31,653 nucleotides of DNA from a virus, in IMG/VR virus record IMGVR_UViG_3300023281_001116, positions 1 through 31,653 of that record. One strand, given 5' to 3'. Made by a program: the position numbers and the translations under genes. The notes beneath the pieces were generated by a model that saw nothing but the letters and a program-made list of their open reading frames with translations, had not been told where the DNA came from and ran no database searches. Shown one piece after another: positions 2,479 through 16,726 of the stretch (the first letter of the stretch is position 1; every line of letters starts with the position of its first letter).

Positions 2479-4451
2479 ACACCATTGGCCAGGATTGGTT
2501 GATAAGTGAGGTTGACGGATTAACAGAAGAAATTATCAAAATTGCCCCCAGTGTTTTTAACGAGGAGAATCGTTATTTACCGGCGTCGGTCACGTCAATA
2601 CCGGGGTACATCCGGTTTGCGGTAAATCCGTATATGCGTGAAATACTGGATTGTTTCGACGTCGACAGCGATGTGCGCGAAGTTAATTTAAAAAAGGGTG
2701 TACAAATTACATGGACGACGTTGATTGAATCTATACTTTTGTATTACATGTTCCATGTTAAAACGTTGCCCATGATGTATATGACGGCGGATAAGGAACT
2801 CGCCGAAGAACGTGTTTCTAATAATATTATTCCAATGATCAATCAATCGGGGTTTGCGGATAAAATACGGTCAAGTGACGAAGGTAATTCACGAAAAACC
2901 GGCAAGACAAAAAATCATATCCAGGTAGAAGGCGGCGCATACATGGTGCCGTTTGGTGCACAAAATGCGGCTAAAATGCGATCCTATTCTATCGCTTTGA
3001 TGTTTAAGGATGAGTTAGACGCGTGGCCGGACGTGGTTGGCAAGGACGGTGACCCCGATGCGATCAGCGACGACCGATGTTCGGGGTACTGGGAACGTCG
3101 GAAAATTGGGCGCGGGTCCACACCGTTGATTAAAGGAATGTCAAAAATTGAAGACGCGTACCGTCGCGGCGACCAACGCAAGTATATGGTGTTGTGTAAA
3201 GCTTGCTCGTTCCCTCAATCGCTGCGGTGGGAATCAGTCAACAAGGAAACCGGTGTTGTGGGCGGTTTTCGGTGGGAGATGGAAGATGGGGCTCTTTTGT
3301 TGGGTTCCGTTTGTTACTGTTGCCAATCTTGTGGCCACCCTCACTACGAACATGATAAAGAGCGTTTATTTTCTCCTAATCACGGTGCACATTGGAAGCC
3401 TACGGCCCGACCTGTCGAACCAAACATACGATCCTACCACTTGCCTGCGTTGTATAGCCCTATTGGTATGCAGCCTTGGTATAAATCTGTTAGTGCTTAC
3501 CTGCAAGGATACGACCCTGTTGATCGAAAAGTGATCGACATCGGCAAGTACCAAAAATTTTACAATAACGTGTTGGCTGAACCATTCGAAATTAAAGGGG
3601 CGAAAGTCCTGTTTGAAGCAGTATCCCTCCATCGACGTACTGTTTATCGGTTTGGGCAAATCCCCAACGCACACGCGCAAGAACACGCAGGGTCTCGTAT
3701 TTTATTTCTTACTTGTCAGATTGACGTGCATAAAAGTAACCTGGCGGTGTCGGTCATGGGTTGGGCTAAAGACGCGAAGTGTTATTTGATTGATTATTGG
3801 CGGTTTGAGGCAGGCGGGCTCGCCGAGGATTGTACTGAGCTCGGCGATCCCGTTTGGGGAAAGGTACAACAATTGATCGAGGAGACCGAGTATATATCAG
3901 ATGACGGACTGAAATACAAGGTAACATTAACGCTTATCGATGGGGGGTATGCTAATGATACGGTCTCGACGTTTTGTTCGTCGTACGGCTGGGGGGTTTT
4001 CCCCATCTTGGGTCGCGAACGCCCGGCGAAAATTCAGAAAATCAGTGAATTCGCGGAATTTAAAACGCAAGCCGGTGGTCGTGGGTACCGAATTTTAGTT
4101 GATCATTATAAGGATCGTATAGCCACGGCGTTGCGCCGTGAGTGGTCTGAAGGGTCAGGAGAGCAACAGCGATTCCACTTTAACGCCCCCGTCGATACCA
4201 CCGACGCTCAAATTAAGGAGCTCACTGTCGAAGTCAGGCAGAAAAAGACCGACGACCGAGGCAACGTGTCGTATATTTGGTACCGTCCAGGCAACGCACG
4301 GAATGAATTGTGGGATTTGTTGGTCTATGGGCACGCTGCTGTAGAAATCCTCGCGTGGAATATTTGCATCCAACATTTTGAACTTGAGACCGTTGAATGG
4401 GGTCAATTTTGGGCTTATATGGGTGAACAATTGCCTGCCGCGACAACCTAG
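2466..4451 (+). CDS. Terminase large subunit, GpA family
   Basis: ATPase-nuclease that cuts concatemeric DNA and drives packaging into the prohead. At 661 aa it matches the GpA family (lambda gpA is 641). Visible parts: a degenerate Walker A at residues 76-84 (KKGVQITWT), the same numbering as lambda gpA's KSARVGYSK; a Walker B acidic motif DELDAW at 182-187; a cysteine cluster at about 244, 247, 283-289 (CKAC, CYCCQSC) resembling the zinc knuckle of GpA proteins; and the nuclease domain from about 410, with TCQIDVH (D420), LIDGGY (about 492) and a C-terminal WDLLVYGHAA. The glycine before the Walker A threonine is replaced, but GpA proteins vary there. It starts inside the previous gene. Confidence 0.93.
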   Translation: MLNLDTIGQDWLISEVDGLTEEIIKIAPSVFNEENRYLPASVTSIPGYIRFAVNPYMREILDCFDVDSDVREVNLKKGVQITWTTLIESILLYYMFHVKTLPMMYMTADKELAEERVSNNIIPMINQSGFADKIRSSDEGNSRKTGKTKNHIQVEGGAYMVPFGAQNAAKMRSYSIALMFKDELDAWPDVVGKDGDPDAISDDRCSGYWERRKIGRGSTPLIKGMSKIEDAYRRGDQRKYMVLCKACSFPQSLRWESVNKETGVVGGFRWEMEDGALLLGSVCYCCQSCGHPHYEHDKERLFSPNHGAHWKPTARPVEPNIRSYHLPALYSPIGMQPWYKSVSAYLQGYDPVDRKVIDIGKYQKFYNNVLAEPFEIKGAKVLFEAVSLHRRTVYRFGQIPNAHAQEHAGSRILFLTCQIDVHKSNLAVSVMGWAKDAKCYLIDYWRFEAGGLAEDCTELGDPVWGKVQQLIEETEYISDDGLKYKVTLTLIDGGYANDTVSTFCSSYGWGVFPILGRERPAKIQKISEFAEFKTQAGGRGYRILVDHYKDRIATALRREWSEGSGEQQRFHFNAPVDTTDAQIKELTVEVRQKKTDDRGNVSYIWYRPGNARNELWDLLVYGHAAVEILAWNICIQHFELETVEWGQFWAYMGEQLPAATT

Positions 4452-12245: not shown

Positions 12246-13742
12246 ATGGCGATAAGTACGGCTATTGATGCTTCGGCAGTTGCGCGCGTTCTCGGTATAA
12301 AAACAATTTATGAGGACCTTCGTGGGGCGAATGTGGTTCTACTACCGCAACGTGTCGCGCTGGTTGGTCAAGGCGCAACTGCCTCGACCTACTCAACAAC
12401 TAAAGCGCAAGTGACGAGTGCACAAGAGGTTGCCACAAATTATGGTTTTGGTTCACCGTTGCACTTGGCGGCGCTACAGTTGTTGCCCGCTAACGGTGAT
12501 GGCATCGGAACCATCCCATTGACCGTCTATCCTCTTGTTGACGATGGGTCCGGTGTGGTTTCCGCAGGCGATATTACCCCCAGTGGGGCTGTAACAAAAG
12601 CAGGATCGTTTATTGTACGTATTAACAACATTGACAGTGCGTCGTTCGTTGTATCTGTCGGTGACGCCGTTGCTACGATTATCACAAACATTGCAACGGC
12701 TGTCGCGGCGGAACTTAATCTTCCTATGCTTGGGGTGGATAATACCACTGTATTTGATCTCACTTCGAAGTGGGCCGGAACAAGCGCCAACGATTTATTT
12801 ATCGAAGTTGTCGGACCGACAGACACGGGTGTATCGTTTGCGATCACTCAACCCGTGGGCGGCCTGGTTAATCCTGACATTGACGCCGCGTTGGCGCAGG
12901 TTGGTGGGGTGTGGGAAACTGTAATTCTTAATTGTCTGGATATTGCCGACACCGCGACGCTTGATAAATATCAAGTGTTTGGTGATGGTCGGTGGGGTGC
13001 AATTGTTAAAAAACCTTTGGGTGTGTTTACAGGTAATACCGCAACGACCGTTAGTGCGGCAACAGCCGTTTCTGACACGCGTAAACCAGATCGAACAAAC
13101 GGTCAGTTGGTTGCGCCGGGCTCCAAAGATTTACCGTTTGTTGTTGCGGCTCGCGAGCTTGCACCCATTGTGGTATTAGCGAACAACAACCCCGCACACG
13201 ATTATGGTAGTCAGCCCGCGACAGGATTGACCCCCGGCACCGATGGCGAACAATGGACTTATACGCAACGTGATGCGGCTGTGAAAGCAGGCAGCTCGAC
13301 TATTGAAGTTAAAGACGGTGTGATTAATGTGTCAGACACTGTCACATTTTACCACCCTACGGGTGATCCTAACCCCGCATTTCGTTTTTTTGTTGATATC
13401 GTTAAATTGCAAAACATCATTTTCAATTTTGATTTGCGGTTTGCAACGGATGAGTGGGACGGTGCGCCTTTAATTCCAGACGACCAGTACACAACCAATC
13501 GTTCGGCGAAAAAACCACGTACGGCGGTTACTGTTGCGAATACCGTCATTGACGCGTTAGCCGCCGAAGCATTGATTAGCGATCCAAAAACGGCGAAAGC
13601 TAACACGATTGCTGAAATTGACGGGGCTAATCCTAAACGTTTGAATTTATCAGTGACTATTCAACTTGTGGGCAATAGTAATATTATCTCAATGGATTTA
13701 AATTTTGGGTTTTTCTTTGGCCAATCAACACTAGCCGCGTAA
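12246..13742 (+). CDS. Tail sheath protein, Mu gpL-like
   Basis: The contractile sheath subunit that surrounds the tube and shortens on infection. At 498 aa it matches Mu-type sheath proteins. Family-like features include an N-terminal arm with GANVVLLPQRVALVGQG; the central segments PLTVYPLVDD and WETVILNCLDIAD; and, towards the C-terminus, WTYTQRDAAVKAGSSTIEVKDG, the strand IINVSDTVTFYHP-type region and RFFVDIVKLQNIIFNFDLRF. The C-terminal strand region needed for sheath interlocking (LSVTIQLVGN, MDLNFGFFFG) is present. A strong ribosome binding site AAGGGGGAA precedes ATG 12246. The presence of this gene shows that the phage has a contractile tail. Confidence 0.9.
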   Translation: MAISTAIDASAVARVLGIKTIYEDLRGANVVLLPQRVALVGQGATASTYSTTKAQVTSAQEVATNYGFGSPLHLAALQLLPANGDGIGTIPLTVYPLVDDGSGVVSAGDITPSGAVTKAGSFIVRINNIDSASFVVSVGDAVATIITNIATAVAAELNLPMLGVDNTTVFDLTSKWAGTSANDLFIEVVGPTDTGVSFAITQPVGGLVNPDIDAALAQVGGVWETVILNCLDIADTATLDKYQVFGDGRWGAIVKKPLGVFTGNTATTVSAATAVSDTRKPDRTNGQLVAPGSKDLPFVVAARELAPIVVLANNNPAHDYGSQPATGLTPGTDGEQWTYTQRDAAVKAGSSTIEVKDGVINVSDTVTFYHPTGDPNPAFRFFVDIVKLQNIIFNFDLRFATDEWDGAPLIPDDQYTTNRSAKKPRTAVTVANTVIDALAAEALISDPKTAKANTIAEIDGANPKRLNLSVTIQLVGNSNIISMDLNFGFFFGQSTLAA

Positions 13743-13762: not shown

Positions 13763-14146
13763 ATGTCTGCAATAGGTGGTAGTATTGAATCGGTAACTCT
13801 TGCTGGCCGAGAATTCCCGGTTGCTGCGGATGCTGAATCACAGCGTAAATTGGGAGGCTTCGAAAATGAAGTCCAAGCAAATGGTGACGGTAGTACTCGC
13901 ACGGTTAAAACTCGCGTGCCTTGGTCAATTGACGGGTTAACACTAGAGGTTGATGATGACAGAGGCGACCAAGAATTTCTTCAAGATTTGTCCGATGCTA
14001 ATACGGATTTTGCGTTCGGTGCGAATTTTGTTTCGGGTGCAACATATCAAGGTACCGGACAGATTGTAGGTGAAACCCAAGTAAGCAGCCAAAACGCCAC
14101 AGCGGCTGTTTCGTTCATGGGTCCAGGTGTTTTAACCAAGCAATAA
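13763..14146 (+). CDS. Tail tube protein, Mu-type
   Basis: A 127-aa protein that polymerises into the inner tail tube. It has the expected position directly after the sheath and the expected size (Mu tube ~118 aa). Sequence pattern: IESVTLAGREFPVAADAESQ, then LGGFENEVQANGDGSTRTVKT, VPWSIDGLTLEVDDDRGDQEFLQ and a C-terminal ATAAVSFMGPGVL, consistent with the tube beta-barrel plus short helix. GAGGAG at 13747-13752 is the ribosome binding site. The next 90 bases contain no conventional gene but a strongly structured element. Confidence 0.85.
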   Translation: MSAIGGSIESVTLAGREFPVAADAESQRKLGGFENEVQANGDGSTRTVKTRVPWSIDGLTLEVDDDRGDQEFLQDLSDANTDFAFGANFVSGATYQGTGQIVGETQVSSQNATAAVSFMGPGVLTKQ

Positions 14147-14152
14147 AAATAA

Positions 14153-14212
14153 AGTAGGACATTATGCTGCGTGCGAGTCCTACTGCTCATCCCGGTTCGC
14201 CGGGGCGCAGCA
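14153..14212 (+). ncRNA. Predicted structured RNA element: pseudoknot with UUCG hairpin
   Basis: In the 90-base gap between tube and chaperone genes, three perfect helices can form. Stem A pairs AGTAGGAC (14153-14160) with GTCCTACT (14177-14184), 8 bp. Stem B pairs CCCGG (14191-14195) with CCGGG (14200-14204) around TTCG, 5 bp. Stem C pairs TGCTGCG (14165-14171), which lies in the loop of A, with CGCAGCA (14206-14212), 7 bp, and encloses B. A and C together make an H-type pseudoknot with B nested in it. CCA follows stem C (14213-14215). No U-run follows, so it is not a terminator. It is not a canonical tRNA: there is no anticodon arm and no proper T-arm. An ATG (14164) with AGGA upstream lies inside the loop, so it could regulate translation of a short frame or of the chaperone gene at 14237. 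Confidence 0.45.
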
Positions 14213-14236
14213 CCATTAACATAGTAGGGTGTTATT

Positions 14237-14653
14237 ATGATCGAAGAAAAAATCCCAAAAGACATGGCCGAACTCGAATTTTTAAAATTTGCGGAAGCTA
14301 TGGGAATATATACAGCATTAGATACCTCCGAATTAGAAGCGGACGATTTGACTCAATTTAATACTCATAAAGAAAAACTTTTATGGGCTATTCGAACAGG
14401 CCATCTCGAATTTAATGAAAATGGCGAGGCAGTTTACACCCCCCACCGTTCGGATTACAAAGAACCTATCACTTTTTATGAGCGCACCGGCGCGTCTATG
14501 ATTGCTATGGACAGCAAGAAAAAAGGTCATGATATGGCTAAGACTTACGCTGTGTTAGCGAACATGTGTCGTCTCCCAATTAAAACAATAACCTCATTGA
14601 AAGGGGTTGATATTGGGGCTTGCGAGTCAATCTTTGCGCTTTTAATGGGGTAG
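14237..14653 (+). CDS. Tail assembly chaperone, gpG-like (pre-frameshift product)
   Basis: A 138-aa, largely helical acidic protein in the position of lambda G, P2 E or Mu gp41, between tube and tape measure. These chaperones coat the tape measure protein during tail assembly. It starts MIEEKIPKDMAELEFLKFAE with AGTAGGG upstream and contains ERTGASMIAMDSKKKGHDMAKTYAVLA, a helix-rich region common in such proteins. The frame ends FALLMG at TAG 14651-14653, where GGGG immediately before the stop would allow a -1 slip into the downstream frame. Function is assigned from location, size and the frameshift arrangement. Confidence 0.7.
   Translation: MIEEKIPKDMAELEFLKFAEAMGIYTALDTSELEADDLTQFNTHKEKLLWAIRTGHLEFNENGEAVYTPHRSDYKEPITFYERTGASMIAMDSKKKGHDMAKTYAVLANMCRLPIKTITSLKGVDIGACESIFALLMG
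14647..14653 (+). other. Probable -1 programmed frameshift site (GGGG TAG)
   Basis: The zero-frame codons are ATG GGG TAG. The glycine codon GGG can re-pair perfectly one base upstream because the four bases 14647-14650 are all G, with the slow-decoding stop codon in the A site. The -1 frame then stays open to 14862. It is not a canonical XXXYYYZ heptamer; TTTTAA at 14640-14645 offers a weaker alternative. A possible stimulator is the purine-rich TTGGGG about 30 bases upstream. Confidence 0.5.
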
Positions 14654-14862
14654 TATGTACATTGTTGGTGCGCAATGGTGCCAGTGAAATGTTGAAAAAA
14701 GGAACACATACTTTTTACAATGTATATACTGAAATGTTTTATCAAATTTGTCGCGATTATAATACATTGCCGGACATCCGAAGTTTAACGGCGCGGGAAA
14801 TTGTATTTTTTTATGAAGGGCTGCGTCAAGAATTAATCGAACATACTAAACCGAGGGGGTAA
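14650..14862 (+). CDS. Tail assembly chaperone extension, GT-type, made by -1 frameshift
   Basis: This open frame is -1 relative to the chaperone gene. After slippage at GGGG (14647-14650) the fusion would be 208 aa: 138 from the first frame plus 70 more. The extension has NVYTEMFYQICRDYN, then LPDIRSLTAREIVFFYEGLRQELIEHTK, a pattern I associate with GT/E'-type extensions in which a 'LT..EI.FFY.GLR.EL..HTK' helix ends the protein. Such extensions link the chaperone to the tube and tape measure. Independent initiation is the alternative: ATG 14689 is in frame but has only a weak ribosome binding site. The stop is 1 base before the tape measure start. Confidence 0.6.
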   Translation, partial: VVCTLLVRNGASEMLKKGTHTFYNVYTEMFYQICRDYNTLPDIRSLTAREIVFFYEGLRQELIEHTKPRG

Positions 14863-14863
14863 T

Positions 14864-16726
14864 GTGGCGGGACGTTTTACAGTCGAAGCAATTTTTAAAG
14901 CGGCTGACCGCATTACCGAACCGGTTCGGCGCATGCAGAAAGGTGTCGGTAAATTCACGCGTTCTGCGGAGCGCGGGTTTCGTCGGTTAGATCGTGCTGT
15001 TGGTAAGTTTGGTGATGGTATTAAACGTGGCGCAGCTACTGCCGCCGTGGCTTTAGGTGTGACCGCTGCCGCAATGGGTAACGTTATCAGTGTCGGTGCT
15101 GATTTCGGTCGTGCCATTGGTTCGGCTGCGGCTAAATTTCCCGAGCAAATTGAACGCGGTACTCAGGCATTTGATGACCTGGCAATTGCGGCACGTGGGG
15201 TAGGTGCGGCTACGGAGTTTACCGCTACTCAATCCGCGCAAGGTCTGAAGTTCCTAGCTAAAGCGGGCTTCACCGCCAAGGCGTCAATCGCGTCACTCCC
15301 CTCTATTGTTGATTTTGCTACAGCCTCAGAAATTGAACTTGCCGAAGCGGCTGACATCGCGTCCGATGCGTTGGGTGCGTTTGGATTAGATAGCACGGAC
15401 ACGGGTAAAAAACTGAAAGGGTTGCGGCGGGTGATGGACGTTATGAGTTCTACCGCGAACGCTACTAATACTTCAGTGTCAGAACTATTCGAAGCCGTAA
15501 AAGATGGGGCGCCTATTTCGGCGGCCGCAGGTGTGTCTATTGAAACTTTTTCGGCCGCAATGGGGTTTCTCGCCAGTAACGGAATTAAAGCGTCTAAAGC
15601 GGGTACCGCTGCGAAAAATATCACGCTTGCTTTAGCGGGTGTTGGTAATAAAGCGGCGGAAACTTTCAAACGTTTGGGAATTAGCCTGGCAGATTCTAAT
15701 GGTAATTTACGCGATCAATTTGACGTGATGGACGATTTGAGGAAAAAATTGGCAGGGGTCGGAGAAAAAAGAAGGGTGAATTTGATCGCTGCTATTTTTG
15801 GAAAAATCCCCATTGCTGCGGCGACTAAATTATTAGCGGACTCAAGCGGTAAAGTCAGGGAATTGCGCAAGGCATTCGAAGCAGCGGGAGGGTCGAGTAA
15901 ACGTATTGCGGCATTTATCCGAAATGATGTAAAAGGCAGTTTGGATGGTTTAGGTTCTGCTATAGAAGGTGTCAAGATATCTATATTCGAAATTAATAAG
16001 GGACCACTTAAAGAAGCAATCGACAAAATGACTATGTGGGTTCGCACTAATGATAAATTAATTGCGTCAAAAATCGGCGGATTTTTCCTGAGTATCATTA
16101 ATAATTTTGAAAATATTGTTAAATGGGTTAAACGCATCGGTGTTGGTCTTGGAATATTCCTTGCATTGACGGTAGTGTTGAAAACGCTTGTGTTGGTGAT
16201 GACGGCTGTCAACTTGGTGATGGCTCTCAACCCAATAGGTTTAATTGTGTTGGGTGTTGTTGCGCTTATTGCTGCGGTTACAGCGCTGGTTGTATGGTGG
16301 GACGAACTAAAGGCAGTATTTGTTTCGTTGCCAGGACCTGTTAAAACGGCTTTTGCTGTGTTGATGGGACCCATTGGCGCCTTAATTGCTGCGGCATCGT
16401 TCGTGATGGATGCATGGGAACCCATTAAATTATTTTTTACGGATTTGTTTGAATCAATCGCAAAAGTTGCAAACGTTGTGTCCGCCATACCGGGGGGTGC
16501 ATTCAACGTACTCAGTGATACGTTATTTGGGGGTAATCAAGAAGGTGAGGGGCAAGGTGTAAAACCGAAGGTTGTGAGTCCGCAAGAACGTGTCGCACGT
16601 AGTATCGAAGAGAGACAAACAACCAATACGTCACAAGTTACTATTCGTGACGAGACGGGTCGCGCCGAAGTGACAAACGGCAATTTGGGTCGTGGTGTCA
16701 CATTACAAGAAGCGGGAGCGTTTTAA
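14864..16726 (+). CDS. Tail tape measure protein, TP901 type
   Basis: Sets tail length and is ejected with the DNA during infection. At 620 aa it is short for the family, implying a short tail. The N-terminus is basic and helical (FTVEAIFKAADRITEPVRRMQKG). The core TP901-like region (roughly residues 100-330) carries GAATEFTATQSAQGLKFLAKAGFTA, LGAFGLDSTD, SSTANATNTSVSELFEAV and KAGTAAKNITLALAG, all typical of this family. Hydrophobic segments at about 422-480 could span the host membrane. The start is GTG 14864, after a GAGGGGG ribosome binding site. At roughly 1 Angstrom-scale rise per residue used for such rulers, the tail should be under about 100 nm, an estimate only. Confidence 0.9.
   Translation: MAGRFTVEAIFKAADRITEPVRRMQKGVGKFTRSAERGFRRLDRAVGKFGDGIKRGAATAAVALGVTAAAMGNVISVGADFGRAIGSAAAKFPEQIERGTQAFDDLAIAARGVGAATEFTATQSAQGLKFLAKAGFTAKASIASLPSIVDFATASEIELAEAADIASDALGAFGLDSTDTGKKLKGLRRVMDVMSSTANATNTSVSELFEAVKDGAPISAAAGVSIETFSAAMGFLASNGIKASKAGTAAKNITLALAGVGNKAAETFKRLGISLADSNGNLRDQFDVMDDLRKKLAGVGEKRRVNLIAAIFGKIPIAAATKLLADSSGKVRELRKAFEAAGGSSKRIAAFIRNDVKGSLDGLGSAIEGVKISIFEINKGPLKEAIDKMTMWVRTNDKLIASKIGGFFLSIINNFENIVKWVKRIGVGLGIFLALTVVLKTLVLVMTAVNLVMALNPIGLIVLGVVALIAAVTALVVWWDELKAVFVSLPGPVKTAFAVLMGPIGALIAAASFVMDAWEPIKLFFTDLFESIAKVANVVSAIPGGAFNVLSDTLFGGNQEGEGQGVKPKVVSPQERVARSIEERQTTNTSQVTIRDETGRAEVTNGNLGRGVTLQEAGAF

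Follow-up and report, generated by a model that had tools for sequence, protein, structure and literature searches.

A pseudoknotted RNA element between the tail tube and tail assembly chaperone genes of myophages: a candidate cis-acting control of chaperone translation

Background

The gap between the tail tube gene and the tail assembly chaperone gene of related myophages harbours an RNA element which, judged by comparison of sequences, is probably a cis-acting translational control in the chaperone leader: a pseudoknot that hides the chaperone Shine-Dalgarno sequence (SD) would be opposed by a decoy SD further upstream. Phages make very unequal amounts of tail proteins from shared late mRNAs. 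The element, which Rfam lacks, is widespread; its fold and its target, the chaperone SD, are defined, natural variants with and without it occur, and its decoy-SD design is, to our knowledge, unusual.

Locus and relatives

The window, i.e. the whole stretch of 31,653 nucleotides analysed here, is a 31.7-kb virus record carrying a myophage late operon (Table 1). The ORF downstream of the element (14237-14653) matches phrog_4648, a family of unknown function, and is named a chaperone here because of its position, together with the label 'tail assembly chaperone' that the homologous gene bears in Acinetobacter phage Scuro and the matches of its predicted structure in BFVD. The AlphaFold model of its product (mean pLDDT 89.8), built on an IMG/VR-only alignment, scored E 6.6e-3 (prob 1.00) against a 'tape measure chaperone' and E 0.17 (prob 0.98) against a 'tail assembly chaperone', hits that are weak yet specific; a comparison with solved structures found no match. 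The end of the chaperone gene (stop at 14651-14653) is overlapped in the -1 frame by an ORF at 14620-14862 (+ strand), open from a stop at 14608, which resembles the G/GT-type extension that tail assembly chaperones gain by frameshifting; inspection of this overlap by eye recognised no classical slippery heptamer.

Table 1. Features of the window (positions 1 to 31,653), with the parts of the element and the neighbouring genes
Feature	Position	Strand	Remarks
Sheath gene	12246-13742		late operon
Tail tube protein gene	13763-14146	+	phrog_4699 tail tube, E 6.8e-41; upstream neighbour of the element
Upstream strand AGTAGGAC (decoy; duplicates the chaperone SD)	14153-14160	+	pairs with the anti-SD loop, pseudoknot A
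P2, 5' strand TGCTGCGT	14165-14172	+	outer stem of the three-way junction; 94.6% of cells paired
P4, 5' strand	14173-14178	+	GCG at 14173-14175, or GAGU at 14175-14178 in the predicted fold
Anti-SD loop GTCCTACT	14177-14184	+	common to both alternative pseudoknots
P4, 3' strand	14184-14188	+	TGC at 14184-14186, or GCUC at 14185-14188 in the predicted fold
P3 hairpin with UUCG loop	14191-14204	+	CCCGG-TTCG-CCGGG, stacked against P2
P2, 3' strand GCGCAGCA	14205-14212	+	94.6% of cells paired
A/U-rich linker	14213-14222	+	between P2 and the SD helix; begins with CCA in the window
Chaperone SD AGTAGGGT	14223-14230	+	pairs with 14177-14184, pseudoknot B
Tail assembly chaperone gene	14237-14653	+	tape-measure chaperone type; phrog_4648; between tube and tape measure
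Tape measure gene	14864-16726		late operon

Searches with the tube protein yielded L001-L125, a set of loci drawn from IMG/VR and from two MAG contigs (Nitrospinota, Shimia), to which ten stretches of named phages were added: Shewanella phages SppYZU01 and SFCi1, Acinetobacter phage Scuro, Aeromonas phage AeroV_348, Oceanospirillum phage vB_OsaM_PD0307, Pseudoalteromonas phage PY6 and the Vibrio phages 1.009.O, VP16C, 97.13 and 1.164.O. Most loci share one layout of the gap between tube and chaperone. From these related myophages 78 distinct homologous elements could be parsed, 51 of which are less than 80% identical and served as representatives; the automatic parse misassigned a few members, and four of them were set by hand.

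Fold of the element

A first-pass annotation, made from the letters of the window, had proposed an H-type pseudoknot in the gap. Two of its helices, the 8-bp duplex of AGTAGGAC (14153-14160) with GTCCTACT (14177-14184) and the 5-bp hairpin closed by TTCG, were confirmed, while the helix given as 7 bp (14165-14171 with 14206-14212) is present and really comprises 8 bp including one G.U pair (14165-14172 with 14205-14212). Two parts had escaped it, namely the second partner of the loop strand, the chaperone SD at 14223-14230, and a short stem (P4) which presents the anti-SD loop.

Nested folding of the region was only modestly more stable than that of shuffled sequences (z -2.25, 3 of 200 shuffles; z -2.51 for the core alone). 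Single-sequence stability is therefore weak evidence, and comparative evidence was sought. On this evidence the core of the element is a three-way junction of the outer stem P2 and the hairpins P4 and P3, and the loop of P4 contains the anti-SD; free-energy folding likewise predicted this junction in all seven members tested. P4 is a short stem directly inside P2, which forms in 55 of 55 elements with inner pairs as different as GC, CG, UA, AU, UG and GU. When its partners were permuted the native value was never reached in 5000 trials, and when the stem was refitted to shuffled loops it was complete in 34 of the 55 on average (maximum 42).

P2 is at once the most variable and the best-kept helix: 46 different 5' arms occur among the 51 representatives, and its length in the automatic parse ranges from 6 to 14 bp with unrelated sequence. 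L052 and L023 carry long insertions with additional hairpins in place of P3; the size of P3 is free, whereas P2 and the anti-SD loop are kept. The linker has 71% A+T and 8% G across relatives. The CCA directly after P2, which the first-pass annotation had pointed out, does stand at 14213-14215 of the window and is not conserved in the relatives.

Covariation

Covariation was counted on a MAFFT alignment built without reference to structure. Changes on both sides were found at 16 of 20 pairs, with 66-67 double-change cells against about 15 in shuffles, and none of 500 shuffles matched the observed values, which holds for P2, P3, the SD pairing and the upstream strand alike. P2 is paired in 94.6% of cells and changed on both sides at seven of eight pairs, and P3 is paired in 86.3%, with double changes at four of five pairs. 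Apart from the start codon, all nearly invariant positions lie inside the helices P1, P2, P3 and P4 or the SD pairing.

Shuffles and permutations leave the shared ancestry of the elements in place. When partners were slid by 1-3 columns, however, pairing fell from 90-92% to 39-48%, and this control, along with the variety of P2, P4 and SD pairs, speaks against shared ancestry as the source of the signal. Because pairing is kept in relatives despite sequence change, we accept the helices and the pseudoknot as real; covariation among these sequences shows P2, P3, P4 and the pairings of the loop with the SD and with the upstream strand. Compensatory changes in relatives, whose absence the first-pass annotation had named as grounds for abandoning the structure, were thus found, and its H-type pseudoknot is borne out by the 78 distinct homologous elements. 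Its observation is confirmed as a whole and its interpretation partly supported.

Two partners of the anti-SD loop

In each of the 51 representatives the loop strand (14177-14184 in the window) forms 6-10 bp (mean 7.4 bp) with the chaperone SD. This duplex beat every permutation of partners (0 of 2000), in a test biased by an underlying parse that rewarded SD pairing; a parse without that reward and the MAFFT count gave identical loop-SD pairing. Altogether 94.2% of cells are paired, and double changes occur at five of seven aligned pairs, some of which lie beyond the AGGG core. The extremes of compensatory change in loop and SD include CTCAGCCCT/AGGGCTGAG in L130, CTCGCCTT/AAGGTGAG in L105, GTCCTGA/TCAGGAC in L113 and GGATCCCCAC/GTGGGGGTTC in L041. 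The SD pairing is poor in L049 and can be fitted in L116 only with a different part of its loop.

The same loop pairs with the upstream strand, which begins a median of 7 nt past the tube stop; here 88.3% of cells are paired, with double changes at five of seven pairs. The two pairings are mutually exclusive. In all 51 representatives the SD pairing spans 6 bp or more; the upstream pairing does so in 43, and upstream pairing without SD pairing occurs in none. In the remaining eight the upstream pairing falls short of 6 bp, so that two-state switching is not universal. Considering helix energies alone, the SD duplex is on average the stronger in the family (-10.5 vs -8.8 kcal/mol for the upstream duplex); the window reverses this trend, its upstream duplex reaching -11.0 kcal/mol and its SD duplex, with two G.U pairs, -9.0 kcal/mol, again as helix energies alone.

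Association with the chaperone start

In some phages tube gene and element are parted. In Scuro, Vibrio phage 1.164.O and L094 the tube gene is followed by inserted sequence, which in the first two consists of annotated genes, and the covariance model still recovers the element beyond it; in AeroV_348 the model locates the element after a terminator-like hairpin. In all four it directly precedes the chaperone start. Loop and SD, read by eye, are GCCTTG/CAAGGC in Scuro, GTCCTG/CAGGAC in 1.164.O and, shorter, GCCCT/AGGGC in L094; in AeroV_348 they are TAGCCCTG/CAGGGCTA. The E-values of the covariance model are modest (4.6e-4 for Scuro, 7.3e-3 for 1.164.O), and these two assignments therefore depend in part on the agreement between loop and SD.

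Since the element stays beside the chaperone start when parted from the tube gene, it is tied to chaperone initiation, and the same cases argue against roles at the 3' end of the tube mRNA; closeness to the tube stop is not indispensable, as Scuro, 1.164.O and L094 demonstrate. The suggestion in the first-pass annotation of a cis-regulator of chaperone translation is strongly supported by this constancy of position and by the covariation of loop and SD. It had also considered a phage small RNA, which finds no positive support here; the pairing with the SD in cis is a sufficient reason for the conservation. The tube-element junction accepts new genes: L127, L128, L135 and L094 carry terminator-like hairpins after the tube stop and before the element, with longer inserts in three of them.

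Distribution and loss

An element accompanies 71 of the 100 distinct tube sequences. The other 29 lack it, so the element is dispensable. Mapped on the tube tree, presence and absence require 14 changes, seven of which are forced by well-supported branches; the element appears to be old in the group and repeatedly lost, the root being uncertain. A scan of IMG/VR with the core pattern returned 47 contigs, and of 18 seemingly new ones two (L161 and L188) gave a covariance-model match. The MAG contigs L082 and L083, labelled Nitrospinota and Shimia, share the arrangement of tube, element and chaperone, which hints at hosts beyond the Gammaproteobacteria, provided that both were binned correctly.

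L001-L003 lack exactly the segment between two TAGGG copies that is present in L015, and retain one SD. An origin as a mobile insertion flanked by direct repeats was considered and rejected; presence is scattered on the tree, and the direct repeats are explained by the pairing of both copies with one loop. Loss by recombination between the TAGGG repeats is the simpler reading of this type of absence. Having nearly the same genes, L001-L003 are natural element-free relatives and a useful control. Another element-free relative, L059, possesses a longer structured gap (3378-3525) with a 10-bp outer inverted repeat, in which CCGTGTTT complements AAACACGG at the chaperone SD; this may be an enlarged form of the same design.

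Second copies of the element in the same phages were likewise rejected: weak covariance-model matches 3-4 kb upstream are for the most part simple hairpins that accompany a G-rich SD behind the major capsid gene. L136, L137, L138 and L141 have a small GC-rich hairpin between the major capsid stop and the SD of the next gene, some with a UUCG loop, which matches the RNA model weakly and has no anti-SD loop.

Proposed mechanism and alternative explanations

The three-way junction would present the anti-SD in the P4 loop. Docking of this loop on the chaperone SD some 40 nt downstream would yield the H-type pseudoknot B, hide the SD and reduce initiation, whereas its pairing with the SD copy just past the tube stop would form pseudoknot A and leave the true SD free. 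The pairings come from covariation; from them we infer repression by B, relief by A and, if there is one, a trigger. That B lowers initiation is assumed by analogy because it is established for other SD-occluding pseudoknots (preQ1-II, preQ1-III; PMC11625349). What most likely shifts the balance between A and B is the order in which the strands are transcribed, combined with ribosomes that finish the tube gene: the upstream strand is made first, and such ribosomes would cover it. They might thereby free the loop to seize the SD, or they might unfold the whole element; one of the accepted models of translational coupling has ribosomes on the upstream gene unfold the RNA (PMC12548453). We tentatively consider a bistable RNA switch, whose loop alternates between real and decoy SD and in which tube-terminating ribosomes or the tube protein set chaperone synthesis per mRNA. 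A fixed set-point without a trigger is possible and a serious alternative. The likely purpose is to set chaperone output apart from that of the abundant tube protein on one late mRNA.

Regulation by a protein would start from the same SD-hiding form, which a phage protein (tube, chaperone) or a host protein might stabilise, as gp32 does in T4. A pseudoknot just upstream of a ribosome site recalls the T4 gene 32 operator (PMC3014915), and a compact junction could be recognised by its shape; yet no invariant unpaired nucleotides were found for a protein to read, and stem sequences vary freely, as the different P2 arms attest, which leaves such an operator rather unlikely. That no conserved unpaired nucleotides were found to form a pocket bears also on a small-molecule riboswitch, whose ligand would set the balance of the two pseudoknots. 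Docking of a loop on an SD in the 3' tail is indeed the expression platform of preQ1-III (PMC11625349), but no Rfam family matches at gathering score and neither gene nor phage setting suggests a metabolite, so that a riboswitch seems very improbable.

Readings that place the function elsewhere than at the chaperone SD fare worse. The first-pass annotation had entertained a tRNA-like element, which as an RNase P substrate (acceptor stem, T-arm and ACCA) might cut or protect the late mRNA, and close relatives do align a 7-bp stem, a 5-bp hairpin and ACCA like the acceptor/T half of a tRNA. This is unsupported in the family, where ACCA or GCCA follows P2 in only 18 of 52 elements, P2 varies in length and sequence as given above, the loop differs from a T-loop, the A in the would-be discriminator position mostly pairs with the U before P2 and ARAGORN was negative; we consider it highly unlikely. 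Much the same improbability attaches to a partial transcription terminator or a 3'-end stabiliser of the tube mRNA that would lower downstream expression. At least five T occur in the 8 nt after P2 in 19 of the 51 representatives, but such a stretch is missing in 32, the window gives no terminator-like match at the element, and the covariation of loop and SD is left unexplained; moreover, in the four loci where terminator-like hairpins directly follow the tube gene, the element keeps its place at the chaperone. Least credible of all is a small gene or leader peptide that would begin at ATG 14164 and use AGGA for its SD. The ATG and the AGGA in the loop, noticed at first pass, exist, the two are suitably spaced, and a 65-aa ORF (14164-14361) follows; however, relatives have an ATG in only 20 of 51 cases and in all three frames, in 11 of the 20 a stop precedes the chaperone start, and no family match was obtained.

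Comparison with known systems

Searched against Rfam, neither the window nor any of 17 relatives reached the gathering score of a family. The Glutamine-II riboswitch, which at a lax threshold reaches 14.7 bits in the window against 33 needed, was dismissed; it is absent in L126, whose chance matches at that threshold differ from those of the window. A text search of open-access papers found no description of the element, and the genome paper of vB_OsaM_PD0307 mentions neither tail tube nor intergenic, RNA structure or noncoding. In terms of functional class, the element has an anti-SD loop that pairs with the SD of the adjacent gene, with compensatory changes. By analogy its mechanism would be close to the SD docking of preQ1-III and to the rpmI-rplT operator, and the element is a member of neither.

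The rpmI-rplT leader of E. coli is a pseudoknot-containing leader under the control of L20, and like the tube-chaperone pair it involves two adjacent genes on one mRNA. There, upstream translation can keep an inhibitory structure over the downstream ribosome binding site open (PMC12548453). The fold of our element differs, no effector protein is known for it, and an upstream SD copy competes for its anti-SD. With preQ1-III it shares a hairpin-loop anti-SD that docks on an SD in the 3' tail, giving a pseudoknot that controls translation (PMC11625349). It has, however, neither a preQ1 aptamer nor an Rfam match, and its anti-SD hairpin is an arm of a three-way junction with a second partner, the SD copy upstream. 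PreQ1-II similarly occludes the SD by a pseudoknot with several pairing regions (PMC11625349), but its model does not match the element, which has no conserved pocket and belongs to a phage late operon rather than to a queT leader of Bacillota. Finally, the T4 gene 32 operator is also an H-type pseudoknot upstream of a phage ribosome site that controls translation (PMC3014915); the T4 pseudoknot lies well upstream and nucleates the binding of gp32, whereas here the SD itself would be a strand of the pseudoknot.
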